Source: SAR116 cluster alpha proteobacterium HIMB100
Lineage (GTDB): Bacteria; Pseudomonadota; Alphaproteobacteria; Puniceispirillales; Puniceispirillaceae
Assembly: GCA_000238815.2 (NCBI GenBank)
Contig: AFXB01000010.1
Coordinates: forward strand, 434,001-498,000
DNA length: 64,000 nucleotides
Reading direction: 5' to 3'
Below the pieces are notes generated by a model. It worked only from the letters and a program-made list of their open reading frames with translations. It did not search any database and was not told the origin of the DNA. Below are positions 18,910-30,159 of this stretch, piece by piece. Within the stretch, counting starts at the first letter, position 1, and each line of letters starts with the position of its first letter. The translations under genes and the position numbers were made by a program.

Positions 18910-19826
18910 TCTGCGATAAAGGCCTCTACCCTTGTGCGGTCCGGCATCGGGGCCACTGCCCCATAGCCGGTTGTGGACAGTGCCGCTGCGGCATTGGCAT
19001 AGCGGGCTGCCGCAAAAGCATCACGCCCGGCCAGTATTTCCGCCAGAAACGCCCCGTCAAACGTATCCCCGGCGGCCGTCGCATCGACCGCATCAACCGG
19101 AAAGGCCGGAATGATATCCCGTCTGTCAGATGTCGCGATTAAGGTGCCTTTTTTACCGAGGGTTAAGGCAACAATTTCTGCCCCCAATTTCAGATAAAAT
19201 TCGGCAATATCATCAGGCGCATCACAGCCGGTGAGCACCTGTGCATCATCAAGTCCGGGAAGCGCAATATGACACATCGCCATGGCCTGGTGAATGACAG
19301 AACGGGCCTTATCCAAGGGCCATAATTTCAACCGCAAATTCGGATCATAGCTGATCCGCCCGCCAGCAGCCCGCACCGTTTCCATCGCCGCAAAAGCGGT
19401 ATCCGCCGCGATATCTGATATCCCCTGAGAAATGCCGGAAAGATGCAAAATCCGGCAAGAGGACAGAGCAGAAGATACAGGAGCAGCTGCCAGATCAGCC
19501 CGGCTCATCAGGCTGGCCGCACTGCCCGCACGGCGGTAGGAAAAATCATGCCCTGCATCAGAATGGGTAACAAAATAAATCCCCGTCGATACCCCCTCAA
19601 CAGAAGATACAGCAGATATATCCACCGATTCCCTTATCCAGAGATCCAGAATTTTCTGGCCAAACGGGTCAGCACCCAAATGAGTCAGGCAGCCCACAGA
19701 CGCCCCCTGACGTGCAGCCGAAATGGCACAATTCGAGGTATCCCCGCCAAAGCCTTCCAGCCAGAGCCCGTCCGGTTGCTGGTTAAATTCCAGCATCGGT
19801 TCACCAAGACAGAGCAGATCAGCCAT
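18906..19826 (-). CDS. kdgK: PfkB-family sugar kinase, likely 2-keto-3-deoxygluconate kinase
   Basis: Ribokinase-family kinase of 306 residues. The N-terminal substrate part has the FGGDTSNCAISAARQG segment (residues ~28-43), and the C-terminal ATAAGDTFDGAF near residue 250 holds the catalytic Asp and anion hole. Overall pattern best fits KDG kinase, which makes KDPG for eda. It overlaps the stop of iolE by one base (TGATG), so it is the last gene of the inositol operon, where a KDG kinase is not a standard member. It could alternatively phosphorylate a deoxy-ketogluconate from the iol route, but iolC already covers that step. Confidence 0.75.
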   Translation of the reverse strand: MADLLCLGEPMLEFNQQPDGLWLEGFGGDTSNCAISAARQGASVGCLTHLGADPFGQKILDLWIRESVDISAVSSVEGVSTGIYFVTHSDAGHDFSYRRAGSAASLMSRADLAAAPVSSALSSCRILHLSGISQGISDIAADTAFAAMETVRAAGGRISYDPNLRLKLWPLDKARSVIHQAMAMCHIALPGLDDAQVLTGCDAPDDIAEFYLKLGAEIVALTLGKKGTLIATSDRRDIIPAFPVDAVDATAAGDTFDGAFLAEILAGRDAFAAARYANAAAALSTTGYGAVAPMPDRTRVEAFIAD

Positions 19827-20734
19827 CAGCCTGTCCGTTCATCAACCTGATAGCCCGCCTTGCCCAAAGCAGAGGTCAGCGCGTCATGTCCCATCTGTGC
19901 ATAGACCAGCGGATTGGCTTTGGCCGGATCCTGTTCAGCTTCAATAATCACCCAGCCTTCATAGCCGGTTTCATATAAGGCCGCCATGATCGGGTCATAA
20001 TCAATCAGCCCGTCACCCGGGACAGTAAATACGCCGTCCAGCACGCAATCAAGGAAGCTTTGTTTGTCCTTATCCACCGCGGCCAGAATATCGGCCCGGA
20101 TATCCTTGGTATGAACATGATTGATACGGGACCCATGTTTGTTAATCACCCGTAGATTATCGCCGCCCGCAAAGACAAGATGGCCGGTATCCAGCAACAG
20201 ATTCACCGCCTCGCCCGTATGGGCCATCAGCTCGTCAAGTTCAGTTTCGGTTTCCACGGCCGTGCCCATATGATGATGAAAGGTTAGGGGCACGCCCTGA
20301 TCCGCACAATGTTCAGCCAGCGCAGTCAGACGGCGGCCATAAGCGGCGATGTCAAAATCAGCCAGTTTCGGGCGGCTGTTCAATGGGCGTTCCTGGCGGT
20401 TCTGGACTGTCTCATAGGTCTCGCCATAGACAAGCACAGCTGCGCCACATTGCCTGAACAGCTCCAGCTGGGCCGCGATTTGGTCAAGTTCAGCTTCGAG
20501 GCTGTTATTGATCAGCGTGCCGGAATACCAGCCGGAAACAAGGGCCAGATCATGATCAGCCAGAACCGCTGACAAAGCCGCCGCCTGTTTCGGAAATTTG
20601 CCGCCTGTCTCGGTACCGGTAAAACCCGCCTGACGGGTTTCGATCAAACAGGTTTCCAGGCTGGTTTCGCCGCCAAGCTGGGGCAAATCATCATTGGTCC
20701 AGGAAATCGGGGACATGCCCAAACGCAGTTTCAT
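19826..20734 (-). CDS. iolE: Inosose dehydratase
   Basis: TIM-barrel enzyme of the xylose-isomerase-like family, 302 residues, converting 2-keto-myo-inositol to the trihydroxycyclohexanedione used by IolD. The N-terminal MSPISWTNDDLPQLGG and the TGTETGGKFP segment (~39-48) are typical of IolE. Metal-site residues appear in HHHMGTAVET, DTGHLVFAGGD and HTKD. The iolB and iolD genes upstream support the assignment. An alternative, a general sugar epimerase, is much less likely in this context. Confidence 0.92.
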   Translation of the reverse strand: MKLRLGMSPISWTNDDLPQLGGETSLETCLIETRQAGFTGTETGGKFPKQAAALSAVLADHDLALVSGWYSGTLINNSLEAELDQIAAQLELFRQCGAAVLVYGETYETVQNRQERPLNSRPKLADFDIAAYGRRLTALAEHCADQGVPLTFHHHMGTAVETETELDELMAHTGEAVNLLLDTGHLVFAGGDNLRVINKHGSRINHVHTKDIRADILAAVDKDKQSFLDCVLDGVFTVPGDGLIDYDPIMAALYETGYEGWVIIEAEQDPAKANPLVYAQMGHDALTSALGKAGYQVDERTG

Positions 20735-20779: not shown

Positions 20780-21580
20780 TCAGCCCGTGATGATCCATTC
20801 ATGATCAGGATCATTGTGAAATTTCCATATCCGCTTCGGACCAGCCATAACATTTAAATAATAGCTTTCATAGCCATGTGGCGCGCCAACAGGATGATAG
20901 CCTTCAGGCACCAGAACAACAGACCGGTCAGGCGCGGCCATCACCTCATCCAGGCTGCGGTCATCAGTATAGACCCGCTGCAGCACATAGCCCTGCGGCG
21001 GGTTTATGCGGTGATAATAGGTTTCTTCCAGCAAGCTTTCATGTGGCAGATTATCTTTGTCATGCTTATGTGGCGGATAAGAAGACCAATGCCCAGACGG
21101 GGTAATAACCTCTACCACAAGCAGGCTGTCCGCAGCTTCTGTTTCCGGCAGAATGTTACAGACAAAACGCGTATTTGTGCCGCTGCCGCGCTGTTCAAGA
21201 GGCATCTGATCAGGCGTGATCATACGGGCGGGGTGATCATCGCTGCGGCCCGGGGCTCGGCAGATGGCGATTTCAGAATCTGTGGCAGCACTGACCGACC
21301 AGCTGGTCCGGCGCGGCACATAAACCGCATGTGGCGGGGTCCGGTCAAACACAGAAGCGCGCCCGTCAACCCGGCCAAAATCCTGATCCCCTGCGCTGAA
21401 TTCAGCTGCACCAGAGAGCAGGACAAGACAGATTTCCTGATCCGTTCCGGTGGCTGAGATAGTCTGGCCAGCGGCCAGATCATGCACCGCAAAACCAACA
21501 TGTTCCCAGCCCGCAGAGGCAGGGGTAATATCCTGCACAAGTGAAGAGCCGGCTTTTGGGTTTATCAGCAGAGAAGACAT
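20780..21580 (-). CDS. iolB: 5-deoxy-glucuronate isomerase
   Basis: Double cupin of 266 residues that isomerises 5-deoxy-glucuronate to 2-deoxy-5-keto-gluconate. The metal-binding pattern PPHKHDKDNLPHESLLEE sits in the C-terminal cupin, and the product ends with the family's WKFHNDPDHEWI. I chose ATG 21580 because AAGG lies 8 bases upstream; an ATG at 21601 is in frame but lacks a ribosome site. It lies between iolD and iolE in one transcription unit. Confidence 0.93.
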   Translation of the reverse strand: MSSLLINPKAGSSLVQDITPASAGWEHVGFAVHDLAAGQTISATGTDQEICLVLLSGAAEFSAGDQDFGRVDGRASVFDRTPPHAVYVPRRTSWSVSAATDSEIAICRAPGRSDDHPARMITPDQMPLEQRGSGTNTRFVCNILPETEAADSLLVVEVITPSGHWSSYPPHKHDKDNLPHESLLEETYYHRINPPQGYVLQRVYTDDRSLDEVMAAPDRSVVLVPEGYHPVGAPHGYESYYLNVMAGPKRIWKFHNDPDHEWIITG

Positions 21581-21627
21581 CTGGTTCACCTTTTTTGTCA
21601 TTTATGTGGTGCGCGCCTATTTCTGGC

Positions 21628-23475
21628 TTATTTCTGGCCCATTTTCTGGCCTTGGCGGCCCTGTTCGTAAGTGCTGCGGATAGCGGCTATACCCGGCCGG
21701 TCAGAGACCGCAGGCGGTGCCACATCCCACCAGGTCCCGCCTGCCGCAGTTGACGGGCCGGGGTCAGTATCGATCACGATCACCTGAACACCGCCCGCCG
21801 CCACAGCCCGCGCAACCTCATCTTCAAGTGCTGCAATGGTTTCAACCTTTACTGCATTTGCCCCCATAGAGGCCGCATGAGCCACATAATCAATATCGGG
21901 AAGCTGTTGATGATGAGAATCACTGAACAGATTATTGAACGGGGCCCCGCCAGTGGCAGCCTGGAGCCGGTTGATACAGCCAAAGCCGCGATTATCGGTA
22001 ATCACCAGCGTAAAAGAGACACCCATCATCACCGCGGTGGTCAGTTCAGAATTCATCATCAGATAGGAGCCGTCACCGGCAAACACAATATTGGGCCGGT
22101 CCGGGCAGGCCATATTTACGCCAATTCCGGCGGCAACCTCGTAGCCCATGCAGGAAAAGCCATATTCCATGTGATAACCATCAGTCTGGCCAGTCTGCCA
22201 TAATTTATGCAGCTCTCCTGGCATAGAGCCTGCCGCACCAACCACAATGGCCTGGTCCGGGGCTGCCCGGTTCACCGCACCGATAACCTGGCTGTCGCTT
22301 GGCAAATGATTGCCTTCAGGTGCGAGGGTCACGGCTGATACATCTGCTGCCCAGGCCTGTTGCAGGCTGCGGATTTCATCTGCATAAGCCGCGCTGATGC
22401 ACAGATCAGGCAACGCGTCCTCTAGCGCGGCCAGTGTTTCATCTGCATCCCCCACCAGTGCCAATGCGCCCTGTTTGACAGCGTCATGGGTCTGCACATT
22501 GATGCTGATCATCTGACCCGAAAACAGCGCATTTGACCCGGTGGTGAAATCCTGCAGACGGCTGCCGACAGACAGGATCAGATCAGCAGAGGCCGCAAGC
22601 GTATTTGCCGCACTGGCCCCGGTCACACCAAGAGAGCCAACCGCCTGATCATGGCTATCTGGCAGAGATGATTTCCCGGCTTGTGTTGCCGCCACAGGAA
22701 TGCCGGTGCGTGCCGCTAAGGCCGCCAGACGGGGCTGTGCACCTGAATAGCGGACCCCGCCACCAGCGACAATCAGGGGCCGTTTTGCCTTGCGCAGCTG
22801 GTCAATCGCGGATGCAAGCTGATGTTTGTCGGCACGCGGGCGCGGGATTTCCCACACTGTTTCTTCAAAAAAAGCGGCCGGAAAATCATAGGCCTCAGAC
22901 TGGACATCCTGACATAGGCTGAGGCAGACCGGCCCGCACATGGCCGGGTCAGTAAATACAGACATCATTTTCGGCAAAGCTTTGAGCAGCTGCTCAGGCC
23001 GGGTGATGCGATCAAAATAGCGGGTGACCGGCCGGAAACAGTCATTGGCTGAGACTGTGCCATCAGAGAAATCTTCGATCTGCTGGAGGACCGGATCAGG
23101 CCGCCGGTCGGCAAACACATCACCCGGGAGAAAAAGAACAGGCAGGCGGTTCACATGCGCCAGCGCCGCGGCCGTGACCATATTGGTTGCCCCTGGCCCG
23201 ATTGACGAGGTGACCGCCATAATACGGCGGCGGTTGTGCTGTTTGGCATAGGCAATCGCCGCATGTGCCATTGATTGTTCATTATGACCGCGATAGGTCG
23301 GCAAACGGTCTTTTTCTGCGTAAAGTGCCTCGCCCAGACCGGCCACATTGCCATGGCCAAAAATCGCCCAGACCCCCGCAAAGGCTGTTTCTGTGCTGCC
23401 GTCAAATTGTCTGATCTGCTGAGCGGCGAGATATCTGACCAGCGCCTGGGCCATTGTCAATCTTAGCATATTCAT
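21628..23475 (-). CDS. iolD: 3D-(3,5/4)-trihydroxycyclohexane-1,2-dione acylhydrolase
   Basis: Thiamine-diphosphate enzyme of 615 residues that opens the cyclohexanedione ring to 5-deoxy-glucuronate. The N-terminal pyrimidine domain has the catalytic Glu in YRGHNEQSMAHAA, and the C-terminal domain has the ThDP motif starting GDGSYLMMNSELTTA and ending in DN about 28 residues later. The family is often mislabelled acetolactate synthase, but length and the iol neighbours favour IolD. AGGAG lies 7 bases before the ATG. It follows iolC by 51 bases. Confidence 0.94.
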   Translation of the reverse strand: MNMLRLTMAQALVRYLAAQQIRQFDGSTETAFAGVWAIFGHGNVAGLGEALYAEKDRLPTYRGHNEQSMAHAAIAYAKQHNRRRIMAVTSSIGPGATNMVTAAALAHVNRLPVLFLPGDVFADRRPDPVLQQIEDFSDGTVSANDCFRPVTRYFDRITRPEQLLKALPKMMSVFTDPAMCGPVCLSLCQDVQSEAYDFPAAFFEETVWEIPRPRADKHQLASAIDQLRKAKRPLIVAGGGVRYSGAQPRLAALAARTGIPVAATQAGKSSLPDSHDQAVGSLGVTGASAANTLAASADLILSVGSRLQDFTTGSNALFSGQMISINVQTHDAVKQGALALVGDADETLAALEDALPDLCISAAYADEIRSLQQAWAADVSAVTLAPEGNHLPSDSQVIGAVNRAAPDQAIVVGAAGSMPGELHKLWQTGQTDGYHMEYGFSCMGYEVAAGIGVNMACPDRPNIVFAGDGSYLMMNSELTTAVMMGVSFTLVITDNRGFGCINRLQAATGGAPFNNLFSDSHHQQLPDIDYVAHAASMGANAVKVETIAALEDEVARAVAAGGVQVIVIDTDPGPSTAAGGTWWDVAPPAVSDRPGIAAIRSTYEQGRQGQKMGQK

Positions 23476-23526: not shown

Positions 23527-25428
23527 TCAGGCGGCCTGCCATGCCGCAATCAGCCCGGCAAAGCCAGCAGCCATCTGGCGGATGGCGGCCTGATCATCAC
23601 AGCGGCCGGCAAACCAGTCTTCAGCCGGCCCCCAGAAAATCGTACGGCCAATCGCAAAGCCCTTGACCATTTCATCTGTCTTGGCAGCAGCGAACATTGC
23701 TGCCAGCTGGTCAGACGGCATCTGTTTGCCCAGCACAATAATGCCCTGAGCATAGGGATCAAATGTTCTGACCACCGCGCCACATCGCTGCCAGAAGGCA
23801 GCCTGTTCAACCGGTTCCAGCTTCCACCAGTCAGGATAAATCCCCTGATGGTAGATATGTTCCATAATCACAGGAATATCATCAGCCGCCACAGGCTGGC
23901 CAGAATGCGATGTAATAATCTCAACCAACAGCTCGCGCCCAGCCGTGCGGCAGGCATCATAAAGCCGGGCCAGCAGCTGATCATGATGGTCGCGTATATC
24001 AGCAGGATCATCCAGCCGGTAAGGCAGCAGCAGCTTGACTGTCTGCGTCACCGGCCATTCTGCCAGATGGGTGCCGATATCCGGACCCATATTCAATGCC
24101 AGCGGGTAAACCCCGGATGCTTCGGCAGGCCGTCCGGTCCAGAGCCCGCTGTCAGCTGAGCTGTGCAAAGCGGTCTGGCCCTGCTCATCATCAACCAGAA
24201 GGCCAACACCGTTTGTGTCAGCGGCAACTTGCCGGACCGCCTGGTAAGCCAATGCCTTGAACTGGCCGATGGCAGCTGTATCTCGGCCAGTGCGGCTGGC
24301 CAAATCATCAAACTGGTGACGGTGGTCAAAGGCAAAGGCAAACAGCCTGTCATAACGTCTGCGGCGCAAGCTTGACCAATGCAGCTGATTCAATTCAGGG
24401 TCTTTGCGCAACGCAAAATATTCACTGCCCTTATCCAGCAGATGCCGCAATTCAGGATAAGACGGATAGGAGGGGGCACAGCCATGACGTGAGACCGCCA
24501 GCGCACCACACATATTGGCATAACGGGCAGCGACCGCCAGCCCTTCATCACGCAGCCAGCCGCGCAAGAATCCGGCCATAAAACCGTCCCCTGCGCCGAG
24601 CACATTATAGACCTCAATTTCGCGTACAGGAGACGAAATGCCAGAGTCCCAGCCCTTGATTTCGCCTTCAAACACCACACAGCCCATCGCCCCGCGCTTG
24701 CACACAAAAACCGCATCACTCAACGCGCGGGCCGTGCGCAGGGCAGCCAGCGTATCAGTGCTGCCCCCGGCGATGTGCCATTCTTCTTCAGTGCCAACAA
24801 TCAGATCACAAAGCGGCAGAATCTGTTGCAGGTGCGCGGTTACAAAGGCAGATTCACGGAATCGGCCCTCACCATCCCCATGGCCGCCAAGGGCCCAGAG
24901 ATTCGGCCGGTAATCAATATCAAATGCGACCTTGCGGCCAGCATTGCGGGCGCAGTGCATCGCATAGGTGGAGGCTTCTGCGACCTGAGGCGTGCTGAAA
25001 TGGGTGCCGGTCACCACCACAGCTTTTGCAGAGGCAATAAAATCAGGGTGAATATCATCTTTGTTAAGCGCCATATCAGCACAGTTTTCACGGACAAAAA
25101 TCAGCGGAAATTGTTCTGCGTTACGAATCCCCAACAGCACAAGTGCGGTCAGCCGTTCAGGATCAACCAGAGTATGTGAGATATCCACCCCTTCGCGGAT
25201 CAGCTGTTCGGTAACAAAGCGGCCCATATGTTCATCCCCCACCCGGGTGATGAGCGCTGACCGCAGCCCTAAACGTGACGCACCAATAGAAATATTGGTC
25301 GGGCTGCCCCCGACATATTTGTCAAAGCTGGCCATATCTTCGAGCCGGCCGCCTGTTTGCGTGCCATACAGATCAACAGATGACCTGCCGATGCAAATCA
25401 CATCAAGCGCAGAAGAAGATGCCGTCAT
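23527..25428 (-). CDS. iolC: Bifunctional 5-dehydro-2-deoxygluconokinase with C-terminal DUF2090 aldolase-like domain
   Basis: A 633-residue two-domain protein. Residues ~1-320 are a PfkB kinase: GGSPTNISIGASRLG at 40-54 and NVLGAGDGFMAGF near 280 with the catalytic Asp. It phosphorylates 2-deoxy-5-keto-gluconate. Residues ~335-633 are a DUF2090 domain related to class I LacD-type aldolases, with Lys536 in DWWKLEP as the likely Schiff-base lysine. I infer that the second domain splits the phosphorylated product (the IolJ reaction), which would explain why no iolJ gene is present. Such fusions are known in proteobacteria. It comes 17 bases after the ABC ATPase. Confidence 0.92.
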   Translation of the reverse strand: MTASSSALDVICIGRSSVDLYGTQTGGRLEDMASFDKYVGGSPTNISIGASRLGLRSALITRVGDEHMGRFVTEQLIREGVDISHTLVDPERLTALVLLGIRNAEQFPLIFVRENCADMALNKDDIHPDFIASAKAVVVTGTHFSTPQVAEASTYAMHCARNAGRKVAFDIDYRPNLWALGGHGDGEGRFRESAFVTAHLQQILPLCDLIVGTEEEWHIAGGSTDTLAALRTARALSDAVFVCKRGAMGCVVFEGEIKGWDSGISSPVREIEVYNVLGAGDGFMAGFLRGWLRDEGLAVAARYANMCGALAVSRHGCAPSYPSYPELRHLLDKGSEYFALRKDPELNQLHWSSLRRRRYDRLFAFAFDHRHQFDDLASRTGRDTAAIGQFKALAYQAVRQVAADTNGVGLLVDDEQGQTALHSSADSGLWTGRPAEASGVYPLALNMGPDIGTHLAEWPVTQTVKLLLPYRLDDPADIRDHHDQLLARLYDACRTAGRELLVEIITSHSGQPVAADDIPVIMEHIYHQGIYPDWWKLEPVEQAAFWQRCGAVVRTFDPYAQGIIVLGKQMPSDQLAAMFAAAKTDEMVKGFAIGRTIFWGPAEDWFAGRCDDQAAIRQMAAGFAGLIAAWQAA

Positions 25429-25445: not shown

Positions 25446-26231
25446 TTAAGATATTGCCAGTTCTTTGGCCAAATCACCAATTTCCGCCCCGCCTGCCATC
25501 AGCCGCTTGATATCATCGCCTTCAAGATCTTTGGCCGTGCCTTCGCCGATGACCTCGCCAAGGCTGAGGAAGGTAAAGCGATCCGCAATCAGACGGGCAT
25601 GAATTTCGTTATGGGTGATCAGAATAATCGCAATATTGCCCAGCGCCTGGACCCGGCGGATGGTTTTCAGCACTTCCATCTGCTGTTTCTGACCAAGGGC
25701 GGAGGTCGGCTCGTCCAGAATCAGAACCTTGGCGCCAAAATAAATCGCCCGTGCAATCGCCAGGGTCTGACGCTGGCCGCCTGACATGGTGCCGACAGCC
25801 TGTTCAGGATCAGCAATGTTAATGCCGATTTTAGCCATTTCAGCAACAGCGATCTGATGCATCTCATCCATCTTCAGCAAGCCAAATGGCGAGTTAAAGC
25901 GAGTCAGCTCGCGCCCCAGAAAAAAGTTCCGCGTCACCGAAGTCAGCGGGTTCAGGGCCAGGTCCTGATACACTGTGCCGATACCCGCATCAGTGGCATT
26001 GCGCGGCGAGGCAAAATTAACCGGCTCGCCTTCAACCTTGATCTGGCCATCGGTTGGCGGGAACACACCAGACAGAATTTTAATCAGGGTGGATTTCCCG
26101 GCCCCGTTATCCCCCAGAAGCGCGTGAACCTCGCCTGGATAGACTTTCAAAGAGACCCCGTTCAGGGCTGTAAAAGAGCCGAATTTTTTAACCAGGCCTG
26201 TGGTTTCAATAAGTGGCGTTTTGCTGCTCAT
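25446..26231 (-). CDS. Sugar ABC transporter ATP-binding protein
   Basis: Single-domain ATPase of 261 residues for sugar import. Walker A GDNGAGKS lies at 40-47, the signature is TMSGGQRQT, and Walker B is VLILDEPTSALG. Most ribose-type systems have a double ATPase of ~500 residues. The short form is found in CUT2-like importers for inositol or other polyols, where it works as a homodimer. The ATG at 26231 starts one base after the permease stop; an upstream start at 26270 would overlap the permease and lacks homology. Confidence 0.92.
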   Translation of the reverse strand: MSSKTPLIETTGLVKKFGSFTALNGVSLKVYPGEVHALLGDNGAGKSTLIKILSGVFPPTDGQIKVEGEPVNFASPRNATDAGIGTVYQDLALNPLTSVTRNFFLGRELTRFNSPFGLLKMDEMHQIAVAEMAKIGINIADPEQAVGTMSGGQRQTLAIARAIYFGAKVLILDEPTSALGQKQQMEVLKTIRRVQALGNIAIILITHNEIHARLIADRFTFLSLGEVIGEGTAKDLEGDDIKRLMAGGAEIGDLAKELAIS

Positions 26232-26232
26232 A

Positions 26233-27813
26233 TCAAATCGTCCCCATAATCCGTTTGCGGATATTTTCATTCAGCAAGGCAGAGGCGATGATCACAAGCC
26301 CCAAAAATACGCGATAGAAAGAGCCGTCAATGCCAGGGATATAGAAGAACGCCTCTTTGGCGATGCCGAAAATAAAGGCCCCGACAATAATGCCTAAAAT
26401 GGTGCCGAAGCCGCCGGTCATCACAATGCCGCCAATCACCGCAGCCGCGATGGCTTCCAGCTCTTTTAAGTTCCCTTTCGCGGCATCTGCTGTATTCACC
26501 TCAAACACCTGGCAAGTCGCAAATATGGTTGCGCAAAAAGCAGAGAACATAAACAGCGATATTTTCACCTTATCTGTGGGCACGCCATTTGCCTTGGCCG
26601 CATTCAGATTGCCGCCTGTGGAATAAATCCAGTTGCCGGCCTGGGTGCGGCTGAGCACGACATAGCACAATACTGACAACAACACCCAAATCATCACACA
26701 AGAATATAAGCCTGGAGCAAACTGGTTGCCGAAATTATTGGTGTTCCAGTCAATCGGATAATACAGCCAGTCAAACACAGGCTCCAAAATATCCCCGCCA
26801 AAGAAATTCGCCACAGGCCGGGCAGTGACCACAGAATCAATGTAGGCCCTGGCCACATCAATATCTGTCACTGATTTCGGTACCGCAGGAGTGACCTTGA
26901 AATTGGCGATTTTATCCTGGATGGTGGCAACCATGGTATCATTGCCGGATTCGAGAGCATTTTCCAATGCACGTTCCAGCGGCCGCACCCCTTTGGACGC
27001 CATAATTTCTGTCTTGGCATCAGCAATGCGCTGATAGGTATATTGCAGCCGGTCTGTAATGCTGGCGACTTTATCCGCAGGCAGTGCATTCACAAGTGCT
27101 GTCAGGTCAGATTCAGGCAGAGCCTTTGCCGCCTCGCGTTCAATTTCGCCATGGCCGGGCAGATTAATGATATTTTTGATATCCGGAATTTCGGTGACGG
27201 TGGTGGCCCCTTTGACCTGATCCGGGCGATGATTAAAAGACCGCAAAGAGACTTCGGTCAGGCCGCGCAGGAAAAACAATCCGCCAAGCGTGACAATAAA
27301 AGACGGCAGGCCAGACCGCACCACGATATAGCCTTGCAGCCAGCCAAAAAACAGGGTGAAACACAAGGTGATGAGAATCGCCCCTATCGGCGAGACATCA
27401 GAGAGATAAAAAACAGTAAAAAATTCAATATGGACGCCGCCATCAAAAGACAGATACGGGATCACAACAGCAAATCCCCAGCGCAAAATCATGGCCATAC
27501 AGGCCCCGGCAAATCCGATCATAGAGCCGATAGACAGGTCAAATTCGCCCGCAATGATCAACAGACCCGCACCAAGGGCAATAATCCCTAATTGCGAGAT
27601 CACGCGCAGGTTATTTCTGATTCCCAGCGCATTAAAGCCTTCACCAGCAAAAGGGTTTAACGAGAACTCACCTGCCGGAATGGAAAAATAGCCCAACATG
27701 CCAAACAGGACCAACATAACGCCGATTGGACCAATTTCAGGTCGATTGAACAACGCCGCGAAACGGCCCTTTGTTTCATGCCGGTCGGATTCCTGTCGTG
27801 TCGCTGCAGACAT
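26233..27813 (-). CDS. Sugar ABC transporter permease with a large insertion
   Basis: CUT2/ribose-type permease of 526 residues, about 200 longer than RbsC (~320). Segments before residue ~190 and after ~370 look normal, including IIAGEFDLSIGSMIG at 86-100, the GLPSFIVTLGGLFFLRG segment, and the C-terminal GGIVMTGGFGTILG near 461. Residues ~195-340 are a charged, mostly helical stretch with no membrane segment, probably facing the periplasm. I infer that it contacts the binding protein or gates access. The gene is preceded by an attenuating hairpin after the binding-protein gene. Confidence 0.88.
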   Translation of the reverse strand: MSAATRQESDRHETKGRFAALFNRPEIGPIGVMLVLFGMLGYFSIPAGEFSLNPFAGEGFNALGIRNNLRVISQLGIIALGAGLLIIAGEFDLSIGSMIGFAGACMAMILRWGFAVVIPYLSFDGGVHIEFFTVFYLSDVSPIGAILITLCFTLFFGWLQGYIVVRSGLPSFIVTLGGLFFLRGLTEVSLRSFNHRPDQVKGATTVTEIPDIKNIINLPGHGEIEREAAKALPESDLTALVNALPADKVASITDRLQYTYQRIADAKTEIMASKGVRPLERALENALESGNDTMVATIQDKIANFKVTPAVPKSVTDIDVARAYIDSVVTARPVANFFGGDILEPVFDWLYYPIDWNTNNFGNQFAPGLYSCVMIWVLLSVLCYVVLSRTQAGNWIYSTGGNLNAAKANGVPTDKVKISLFMFSAFCATIFATCQVFEVNTADAAKGNLKELEAIAAAVIGGIVMTGGFGTILGIIVGAFIFGIAKEAFFYIPGIDGSFYRVFLGLVIIASALLNENIRKRIMGTI

Positions 27814-27893: not shown

Positions 27894-28802
27894 TTATCTG
27901 TCTACGCCAGCAAGTGCAGCAACAGATGATGCATTTGACTTGTCAACAAAGCCCGGGCCAGATGGGATGTTTGCCCCTGGCAGCAGGCCTGCACCATTAT
28001 TATACAGATGCAGCACGATCACAGGCATGTAGCCCTGCAGACGCTGCTGCTGATCGATTGTGTACTGAACCTTGCCTGCATTGATCATATCCATGACAGG
28101 TGGGCTTAAGTCAAAGCATGAGTGGTGAACAGACATGCCCAGCTCGTCAATCGCCTGCTGCACACCTACACAGACGTGTGGGCCAACAGACAGAACCGCA
28201 TCAATATCCGGGTTTGCCTGCAGACCAGCAGCCGCACGTGTCGGGATGGTGGCCGGGTCATTTGAGCTGTCGACCAGCTTTGTCGGCACAGATTCACCAT
28301 AACCGTTACACCGGTCATTCAGTGCTGTGTTGTACGCTTCCTGGATAAAGCAAAGGGCCTTTGTGGCGCCTTCAGCTTTCGCGCGTGCACCAGCTGACTG
28401 ACCGGCCAGGAATTCTGGCTGACCCACATGCATCAGTGCGCCAACTTCCTTGGATGATTCAAGGCCAGAGTTCATGGTGACCACAGGAATACCGGCTGCA
28501 ACAGCAGCTTTGATCGCCCCGCCCAGCGCGTCTGGATCAGGCAATGACACCACAATACCGTCTGGCTGTGTTGCCGCAGCAGCTGTGATTGATTTTGCCA
28601 TATCACCCATGTCTCCTGATGGGTTGAAGATATATTCAAAATCTGCACCAACAGCACGTGCAGCATCTTCACCGCCCTTTTGCACAACTGGCCAGAAAGG
28701 GTCTTTACCTTCGCCATGTGTGACCATAACGTAACGTTCTGCCTGAGCAGCACCAGCGACCATAGTCACAGCGGCTGTCAGCGCAAAAATAAGCTTTTTC
28801 AT
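27894..28802 (-). CDS. Sugar ABC transporter substrate-binding protein
   Basis: Periplasmic binding protein of the ribose/LacI-type fold, 302 residues. A signal peptide spans residues 1-21 with cleavage after AQA. The mature protein starts with a RYVMVTHGEGKDPFW strand typical of family members that bind monosaccharides or inositol. It is first in the operon with iolC, D, B and E, so inositol or a related polyol is the likely ligand (inference). ATG at 28802 follows GGAGG by 7 bases; a GTG at 28814 overlaps that ribosome site. A terminator separates it from the permease gene. Confidence 0.92.
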   Translation of the reverse strand: MKKLIFALTAAVTMVAGAAQAERYVMVTHGEGKDPFWPVVQKGGEDAARAVGADFEYIFNPSGDMGDMAKSITAAAATQPDGIVVSLPDPDALGGAIKAAVAAGIPVVTMNSGLESSKEVGALMHVGQPEFLAGQSAGARAKAEGATKALCFIQEAYNTALNDRCNGYGESVPTKLVDSSNDPATIPTRAAAGLQANPDIDAVLSVGPHVCVGVQQAIDELGMSVHHSCFDLSPPVMDMINAGKVQYTIDQQQRLQGYMPVIVLHLYNNGAGLLPGANIPSGPGFVDKSNASSVAALAGVDR

Positions 28803-28827
28803 ATTATCCTCCACAAGATGAATTCAA

Positions 28828-28837: not shown

Positions 28838-29016
28838 CTAGAAATATTAATTCTGATTCGCTGGTGAATGTAAACAGTGATTTCCATTTTATTGACAGAA
28901 ACAGATATTATTTTTGCAGCCCCTGGCGGGACGCCGCGTTTTGGGTCTTGCCAAGCAGACCGCATCTTCGCCATAACAAGAGCAGACGAAATTCAGGAAA
29001 CAAGGCGTTAAGGTCA

Positions 29017-30159
29017 ATGTCAGCTTCAGTTCAGGATAAATCAATCGGGGTCGGTGTCATCGGCACGGGTTTTATGGGTAAGGCCCATTCCATTGCGTAT
29101 AGCGCGTCAGCATCTGTGTTCGGCACAGGCCTGCGGCCACAGCTGGAAATTGTATGCGACCTCAGCCCGGAGCGTGCCAGCCAGCGCGCCACTGATCTGG
29201 GCTTTTCGCGTTACAGCGATAACTGGCGGGATGTGGTTGAAGATGAGCGTGTTGAGCTGGTCTCTATCTGCACACCCAATGACACTCATGCTGAAATCGC
29301 AATTGCCGCGCTGAAAGCAGGCAAGCATGTCTGGTGTGAAAAGCCCATGTCAACAACCCTGGCCGATTCAACTGCTATGGCAGCGGCAGCGGCAGCATCA
29401 GCAGGCCAGACCATCATCGGCTATAATTATACCAAAAACCCGGCTGTCACCCACGCCCGCCGCCTGATCGAACAAGGCGCCATTGGCAGGGTATCAGGAT
29501 TTTTCTGTCGGTATGATGTGGATAATGAAGCAGATGGCAGCCGGCCCTGGTCCTGGCGGATGTCACGTGAGCAGTCCGGAACAGGGGCAAATGGGGATGT
29601 GCTGTCGCATGTCATTTCCGTGGCGCATTTCCTGACCGGGTCAACCATTTCCCGGGTTGCCGGTGATTATGCCATTGTGCATGAACAGCGGGCTGATGCC
29701 GAAAATGATGGCCAGACCAAGGCTGTTGATAATGATGATATGGTCTCTGCTCTGGTGCATTTTGAAAATGGGGTCAAAGGCCATATCGGGGCCAGCCGTG
29801 TGACCTGGGGACGCAAATGTGGCCTGCGCTGGGAAATCCATGGCACAGAAGGCACCATTTTATATGATCAGGAGCGGCTGAATGAGCTGAAGCTGTTTAC
29901 CCGTCAGGATGACCCGGCAACAGATGGGTTCCGGACCATCCTGACCGGCCCGCTGCATGAGCCTTATGCCGCTTTTCTACCGAATGGCGGTCATTCGCTG
30001 GGGTATATGGATGTGAAAATCTGTGAGCTGCATGAGCTGCTGGGCGCAATTGAACAGGGAACAGCTGTCTGGCCCAGCTTTGCAGACGGGCTGGTGATCG
30101 AAAAAGTCATGGATGCGGTTGACAGATCTGCCCAGTCAGGGGCCTGGGCAGAGGTGTGA
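29017..30159 (+). CDS. Gfo/Idh/MocA-family sugar or inositol dehydrogenase
   Basis: NAD(P)-dependent dehydrogenase of 380 residues. GTGFMG at 16-21 is the nucleotide-binding loop and EKP at 108-110 the family lysine motif. It is divergent from the iol operon and is the best candidate for the first oxidation of inositol to inosose (iolG or iolX role), which otherwise has no gene here; that is inference from position. I chose ATG 29017, preceded by AAGG, because 51 further upstream codons have no family similarity. Other polyols or sugars are possible substrates. Confidence 0.85.
   Translation: MSASVQDKSIGVGVIGTGFMGKAHSIAYSASASVFGTGLRPQLEIVCDLSPERASQRATDLGFSRYSDNWRDVVEDERVELVSICTPNDTHAEIAIAALKAGKHVWCEKPMSTTLADSTAMAAAAAASAGQTIIGYNYTKNPAVTHARRLIEQGAIGRVSGFFCRYDVDNEADGSRPWSWRMSREQSGTGANGDVLSHVISVAHFLTGSTISRVAGDYAIVHEQRADAENDGQTKAVDNDDMVSALVHFENGVKGHIGASRVTWGRKCGLRWEIHGTEGTILYDQERLNELKLFTRQDDPATDGFRTILTGPLHEPYAAFLPNGGHSLGYMDVKICELHELLGAIEQGTAVWPSFADGLVIEKVMDAVDRSAQSGAWAEV

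Follow-up and report, generated by a model that had tools for sequence, protein, structure and literature searches.

What does a long hydrophilic stretch do in the middle of an importer permease of the CUT2 family, whose members are usually regarded as bare membrane proteins? The question is raised by a minus-strand gene at positions 26233–27813 of the window, by which we mean the whole 64,000-nucleotide stretch of DNA from SAR116 cluster alpha proteobacterium HIMB100 that was analysed. Its open reading frame is intact, with 526 codons, an ATG at 27813 and a stop codon ending at 26233. The product is a CUT2-type ABC importer permease of 526 residues. PF02653 (BPD_transp_2) matches it with 123.3 bits against a gathering cut-off of 26.8, in two separate stretches, the best of which covers residues 360–511. 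The permease stays below the NCBIfam cut-offs of the named CUT2 equivalogs listed (RbsC, MglC, AraH, YjfF, GguB and others), the best being GguB (133.3 bits, cut-off 450). About ten membrane segments are read from the hydropathy peaks, all outside residues 195–340, where the top 19-residue Kyte-Doolittle mean is 0.72. The hydrophilic stretch runs unbroken between predicted membrane segments five and six. The first-pass annotation had described a 526-residue CUT2-type permease with no hydrophobic segment within residues ~195–340, and both observations are borne out.

Aligning the permease with three insert-free sisters at 54–57% identity (L171 from a Sinorhizobium meliloti megaplasmid, NZ_CP146207.1; L163; L164) defined the boundaries of the added sequence. 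The main insertion covers residues 215–330 in loop 5 (about 116 residues; 26824–27171, minus strand), and a small insertion of 7 residues lies in the same loop (195–201; 27211–27231, minus strand). Together with the loop lengths, the alignment also places 19 extra residues in loop 3 (117–135; 27409–27465, minus strand) and 11 in loop 1 (45–55; 27649–27681, minus strand). The loop 3 insertion forms two strands in a low-confidence full-length AlphaFold model. In all, the permease carries about 150 more residues per subunit than its sisters, confined to loops 1, 3 and 5, which lie on one membrane side. These loops have 37, 12 and 78 residues in the sisters, against 48, 31 and 202 in the window permease. 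An insertion of ~145 residues had been claimed earlier; it is real, but its main piece is shorter and is accompanied by the additions in loops 1, 3 and 5. The ~320-residue RbsC-type size used for comparison does not suit this permease, whose nearest insert-free relatives have 377–386 residues.

Loop lengths were taken between anchor residues on 144 permease rows, which differ from one another in their last 190 residues. Loop 5 reaches at least 202 residues in 62 of the 144 rows, and in 61 of these it has exactly 202 or 203. Fifty-nine long-loop rows show 48, 31 and 202 or 203 residues in loops 1, 3 and 5; the others are a contig-end fragment (40/31/202), a fragment with loop 5 only, and L192 (49/22/256). 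Loop 3 is included in 61 of the 62 rows and has 22–31 residues there, as against 3–12 in the insert-free rows, one fragment apart. In another fragment (L026), loops 1 and 3 are long, and loop 5 runs off the fragment end. In the remaining 81 rows, loop 3 has 3–12 residues (0 in one fragment) and loop 5 has 41–136. Loop 1 separates the groups less cleanly, as a few insert-free rows reach 50–55 residues. Across 30 aligned rows, the main insert varies in length by at most one residue. Meanwhile, three distant CUT2 permeases at 27–30% identity (L187, L188, L189) combine a loop 5 of 114–136 residues with a short loop 3, and these may be independent enlargements.

The distribution of positive charge favours an orientation with the N-terminus inside, an orientation also known for RbsC. 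On one side, the mean K+R counts are 5.5 in the N-terminus, 0 in loop 2, 1.0 in loop 4, 2.6 in loop 6, 0 in loop 8 and 3.0 in the C-terminus. On the other side, they are 1.0 in loop 1, 0.4 in loop 3, 2.0 in loop 7 and 0 in loop 9. Loop 5 is net negative, with means of 17.7 basic and 24.3 acidic residues. Loops 1, 3 and 5, and with them the main insert, are hence predicted to be periplasmic. The added module had been proposed to be either periplasmic or cytoplasmic; the charges, and the position of all three enlarged loops on one side, narrow this to a predicted periplasmic one. Loop 6 is the coupling loop, and the insert sits just ahead of the membrane segment leading into it. Searching by sequence with four queries, we found no solved CUT2 permease for placing the insert; one query gave seven matches only (E 0.014–0.45), all unrelated proteins.

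AlphaFold on loop 5 alone, using 66 rows, predicted the insert with a pLDDT of about 90 over residues 218–327, and disorder was rejected on this prediction. The mean pLDDT of this model is 73.8 and its pTM 0.55, with both loop ends below 50. It contains two strands (215–218, 222–225) and five helices (226–230, 234–243, 246–289, 292–304, 317–327). The predicted shape combines a small base with a long helical hairpin, in which a 44-residue helix (246–289) is followed by shorter helices. The full-length permease model is poor (mean pLDDT 56.3, pTM 0.51), and its most confident part is the insert.

Pfam scans at E up to 10, covering the window loop, the L192 permease with its insert and part of the insert of another system (L165), gave nothing credible beyond the permease family. 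The scan of 66 aligned loop rows gave scattered matches only and no credible family; among the best 25 of 39 families, the top E-value is 0.0059 and none occurs in more than 11 of the 66 rows. A by-eye likeness to the MgtE-N/FliG-type helical motif is unsupported by these scans. Foldseek against solved structures returned no match at E 0.001 or better, either for the loop-alone model or for the poor full-length model. For the loop model, the best VIA-align Z is 6.6, with an rmsd of 7.6 over 86 residues, and the top rows include ESCRT-III proteins, seryl-tRNA synthetases and designed bundles. We dropped kinship with these proteins, since such values are common for helical hairpins. A weak or missing structural match does not show the insert fold to be new. 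An intein was judged unlikely by eye, because the insert appears to lack intein end motifs.

Estimated from nine pairs, dN/dS is 0.03–0.07 in the insert versus 0.01–0.03 in the rest of the permease; these values are rough, because synonymous change is high and near saturation in several pairs. Over 46 rows, the mean entropy is 1.1–1.3 bits in the insert segments, 0.4–0.5 in the membrane halves and 0.5–0.6 in the loop parts flanking the insert. The insert thus evolves faster than the membrane core, and its middle is variable. Invariant residues are present inside it across 66 rows. The ratios indicate that the main insert is under purifying selection. They bear on the idea of a near-neutral loop expansion that is simply tolerated and has no more than a structural role. 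A dN/dS above that of the core, the variable middle and the different insert length in L192 are consistent with such an expansion. Yet loop 5 keeps 202 or 203 residues in 61 of the 62 long-loop rows, the insert dN/dS is well under 0.1, the invariant residues persist, the fold is confidently predicted and short insertions occur in two other loops on the same face. We consider a near-neutral expansion quite improbable.

A scan of genome contigs yielded 144 confirmed relatives. The best 80 of the 144 share 68–92% identity with the window permease and match it nearly all at full length, which shows that the protein is no chance product. By their titles they come from SAR116, HIMB59, Pelagibacteraceae, Rhodobacteraceae, Paracoccaceae and a large number of unclassified Alphaproteobacteria, with three labelled Deltaproteobacteria. 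Among named relatives, the closest, with 92% identity, come from two SAR116 cluster genomes (L031, L032). An insert-bearing permease occurs in 18 of the 61 genomes formed by the window's own and its relatives, a count that includes a copy interrupted by an in-frame TGA, a gene split between two contigs and a copy cut at residue 500. Among 385 genomes drawn from the class Alphaproteobacteria, it occurs in 6. A profile of loop 5 gave six matches at E 1e-5 or better in these 385 genomes, all within permease frames of 530–561 residues. Searching for the insert alone, as the first-pass annotation had suggested, thus leads back to this permease each time in this sample, and a free-standing or shuffled domain was rejected because all six matches sit at permease loci. 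In the phylum sample, 34 of 398 genomes match the permease profile with E-values of 1e-30 or lower. One of them, the window's own, matches over the whole profile, and the other 33 cover only its C-terminal part, so that a diverged insert could be hidden among them. The listed open frames of these 33 have at most 465 residues, except L224, which has 579 residues, yet a short loop 5 (80 residues).

We built a maximum-likelihood tree from 62 chosen permease rows with the insert columns left out. Insert-bearing rows were chosen at less than 93% core identity among themselves; for insert-free rows the limit was less than 80%, with 33% or more to the window permease. The 24 insert-bearing rows all lie on one side of one branch (support 100/99), a placement that indicates a single origin of the insert on the sampled tree. 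Closest to them among the insert-free rows are L118 with L171, followed by L117. One row (L019) has an end branch of 3.9 and is flagged as possibly misplaced. The insert-bearing clade comprises SAR116, HIMB59, Pelagibacteraceae and Rhodobacteraceae titles and one diverged, longer alphaproteobacterial version, L192. This deepest insert-bearing row has a loop 5 of 256 residues, with extra sequence within the insert. The middle of its insert scores 28.0 bits against the insert profile, as against 8.4 for the best of the shuffles (1000 made, 961 reported). The match is mainly one 46-residue stretch and covers the first part only, leaving the central hairpin of the others unmatched; in the whole-loop comparison, the conserved flanks contribute much of the match.

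Several loci show further peculiarities. One genome (G847; 8.5 Mb, 7% contamination) holds L192:1465-3207, L207:7735-11333 and an insert-free relative, L208. The copy with an in-frame TGA is L016, the gene on two contigs is L018/L026, and in L191 an open frame runs from a shifted frame of the substrate-binding protein (SBP) into an insert-free permease. These oddities in L016, L018/L026 and L191 may be assembly errors or decay.

The permease gene sits between the genes of an SBP and an ATPase. The SBP (27894–28814, minus strand) belongs to Peripla_BP_4 according to Pfam and has a signal-peptide-like start; judged by eye, as was the signal peptide, its start codon is probably the ATG at 28802, inside the longest ORF. 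The ATPase (25446–26270, minus strand) has one ABC_tran stretch and 274 residues, in agreement with the single-domain partner reported earlier. By comparison with one homologue, its start is probably an inner ATG at 26231, just past the permease stop. Downstream on the minus strand follow an iolC-type kinase/aldolase fusion (23527–25428; NF047869, 691.6 bits, cut-off 600), iolD (21628–23475; TIGR04377, 883.7 bits, cut-off 715), iolB (20780–21601; TIGR04378, 348.8 bits, cut-off 205) and iolE (19826–20734; TIGR04379, 403.3 bits, cut-off 290), so that all four genes alongside the trio score above their cut-offs. The best NCBIfam model for the SBP is the rhizopine SBP NF052284, with 238.5 bits under a cut-off of 420. 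Its best solved relative is 4ru1, which we take to hold myo-inositol. Judged by the iol genes beside it, the substrate of the importer is most likely myo-inositol or a close cyclitol.

Among the best 80 of the 144 relatives, the SBP-permease-ATPase trio is complete and in order at 75 loci; three are without the SBP (L036, L084, L106) and two without the ATPase (L040, L044). At 57 of the same 80 loci, the fetched flanks contain an iolB/C/D/E relative of at least 39% identity, as they do at 47 of the 58 loci of at least 9 kb. No such relative turned up within 19 kb of fetched sequence around L192, whose neighbours include glutamate synthase genes, nor in the fetched flanks of the insert-free sisters L171, L163 and L164. 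The first-pass annotation had named two observations that would speak against it, a disordered insert with no conservation, or one common among annotated inositol permeases. The insert is neither predicted to be disordered nor unconserved; it is, however, common in marine relatives, and mostly beside iol genes. A Gfo/Idh dehydrogenase (28864–30159), closest to levoglucosan dehydrogenase (338 bits, cut-off 650), is divergent from the SBP gene, and such a dehydrogenase adjoins the trio in many SAR116-type loci. In the portions of a SAR116 paper available to us, inositol is mentioned only as an osmolyte derivative (PMC12262181).

The neighbourhood also bears on the possibility that the insert binds another periplasmic partner, such as peptidoglycan, an outer-membrane porin or another envelope protein, and so places the transporter in the envelope. 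The insert is predicted to be periplasmic and helical, it evolves faster than the core, and its 44-residue helix would span about 65 angstroms at 1.5 per residue. Against this, inspection by eye found no single further gene beside the trio in all 80 loci (flanks of at most 5 kb, often cut), and no peptidoglycan-binding or other family matches the insert credibly. An envelope partner seems to us rather improbable.

Our preferred reading, to which we give slightly less than even weight, is that the permease of a probable inositol importer has an enlarged periplasmic face, on which the insert contacts the loaded SBP. As the membrane subunit of the importer, the permease would form a homodimer served by two single-domain ATPases. 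The helical domain of ~116 residues in loop 5 and the short additions in loops 1 and 3 would be ancestral gains, all on a single branch of the tree. As a permease homodimer has been modelled for B. subtilis RbsC, we infer two inserts per transporter, and these copies would flank the SBP docking site. There the insert of each subunit could contact one lobe of the loaded SBP and so capture or orient that protein, in a role and position like those of MalF P2 and with a different ancestry. The contact is favoured by the insert position and by the analogy with MalF P2, on which SBP docking appears the best mechanism. A more far-reaching version holds that a CUT2 importer acquired a periplasmic SBP-capture domain a single time and independently of MalF P2, and that this domain speeds docking and aids cyclitol scavenging; we regard this version as doubtful.

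Comparing the partner proteins gave mixed results for SBP docking. The SBPs have 305–307 residues in the window, L165 and L207, which are insert-bearing, versus 307–310 in the three insert-free sisters, and no added domain or matching insertion was found in the insert-bearing systems compared. Nineteen SBP alignment columns, including a two-residue deletion, split the insert group (same state in at least 90% of 80) from the three sisters, and at those columns L165 and L207, the insert-bearing systems that branch most basally, often share the residue of the sisters. Both the lack of a matching SBP insertion and the sister-like residues count against docking, and the longer, partly unmatched insert of L192, without iol neighbours, counts against the preferred reading as a whole, as do the faster evolution of the insert relative to the core and the poor full-length model. 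In the main marine clade, SBP residues ~34–37, 157, 161 and 176 are changed, near the DPFW motif, along with the two-residue deletion. Most of these changes are missing from the deepest insert-bearing systems and are possibly a later change of substrate.

Across 46 systems, the partial distance correlation of the insert with the SBP is 0.34, and 0.40 without L165 and L207 (p 0.001); with the ATPase it is 0.11, and 0.04 without these two (p 0.06–0.23). Loop 3 correlates with the SBP at 0.38 and with the ATPase at 0.25–0.26, and parts of the insert also correlate with the ATPase. The cytoplasmic N-terminus, taken as a control, gives 0.25–0.27 with the SBP (p 0.001) and 0.30–0.31 with the ATPase. 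With the insert held constant, the membrane core correlates with the SBP at 0.64, and the insert at 0.28 in the same run. Partial Mantel tests are known to overstate significance. Because the N-terminus shows part of the SBP signal, the co-divergence of insert and SBP is not specific. These values are suggestive of an insert that leans towards the SBP, though much of the effect is background. SBP docking, as first proposed, is plausible, though the SBP has gained no counterpart.

A link between the insert and the single-domain ATPase, as the first-pass annotation had implied, is not supported. By ORF length, it is single-domain-sized in all eight insert-free relatives checked, with open frames of 272–281 residues in L163, L164, L171, L167, L169 and L172, 256 in L170 and 269 in L208. 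Another reading of the insert is a clasp of the homodimer, in which the hairpins of the two subunits would pair on the outer side of the membrane, keeping the dimer together or restricting how far it opens. The layout of the long helix 246–289 and the shorter helices is common in self-associating hairpins, and the dimer is presumably symmetric, as each trio has one such permease gene. However, the insert-free relatives adjoin the same kinds of partner genes, and the hairpin part is unmatched in L192; we rate a clasp as unlikely.

The importer is otherwise ordinary, and its conserved domain, specific to one clade, is real; the function of this domain is what we infer. A marine clade carries this domain, which has no credible Pfam match, at the predicted docking face. 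Insert-bearing permeases and their close insert-free sisters form a natural pair for testing how permeases recruit SBPs, and the same pair could show whether such domains matter in nutrient-poor water. If SBP capture is true, the domain would raise the docking rate of the loaded SBP, a step that could limit uptake at scarce nutrients. It would then be an advantage in cyclitol scavenging for ocean alphaproteobacteria (SAR116, HIMB59/SAR11-labelled lineages, Rhodobacteraceae).

Within the open-licence PMC papers searched, as far as their text was available to us, we found no description of this permease insertion. The window permease shares PF02653, about ten membrane segments and partner SBP and ATPase genes with CUT2 permeases such as RbsC, and differs by the ~150 extra residues per subunit, predicted to be periplasmic. 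In RbsABC, the ATPase RbsA has two domains, in contrast to the single ABC_tran stretch in the 274 residues of the window ATPase. As the insert-free relatives also have single-domain-sized ATPases, this contrast is a property of the wider subfamily, and the ATPase form does not exclude the permease from the CUT2 family. L171, L163 and L164 encode an SBP, a permease and such an ATPase in the gene order of the window. FrcA of S. meliloti is likewise single-domain. The S. meliloti fructose importer FrcBCA resembles the window trio in that its SBP, permease and ABC genes share one locus (PMC10433430). Alphaproteobacterial myo-inositol ABC importers are described for Caulobacter (IbpA-IatA-IatP) and S. 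meliloti (SMb20712-20714) (PMC2597717, PMC3454389); their order is SBP-ATPase-permease, whereas that of the window is SBP-permease-ATPase. The homodimer of B. subtilis RbsC was modelled with one RbsA (PMC11466899). MalF P2 of the E. coli maltose importer (CUT1) is likewise a large periplasmic domain of a sugar-importer permease, present in some relatives; it has 180 residues between TM3 and TM4, occurs only in some MalF lineages (PMC2246101) and contacts MalE (PMC3150292). It belongs to another permease family, and its position differs from that of the window insert, which lies between TM5 and TM6. Profile comparison detected no homology between the two (hhalign probability 0.1%). By this comparison, the insert is best described as analogous in position, not homologous, to MalF P2.
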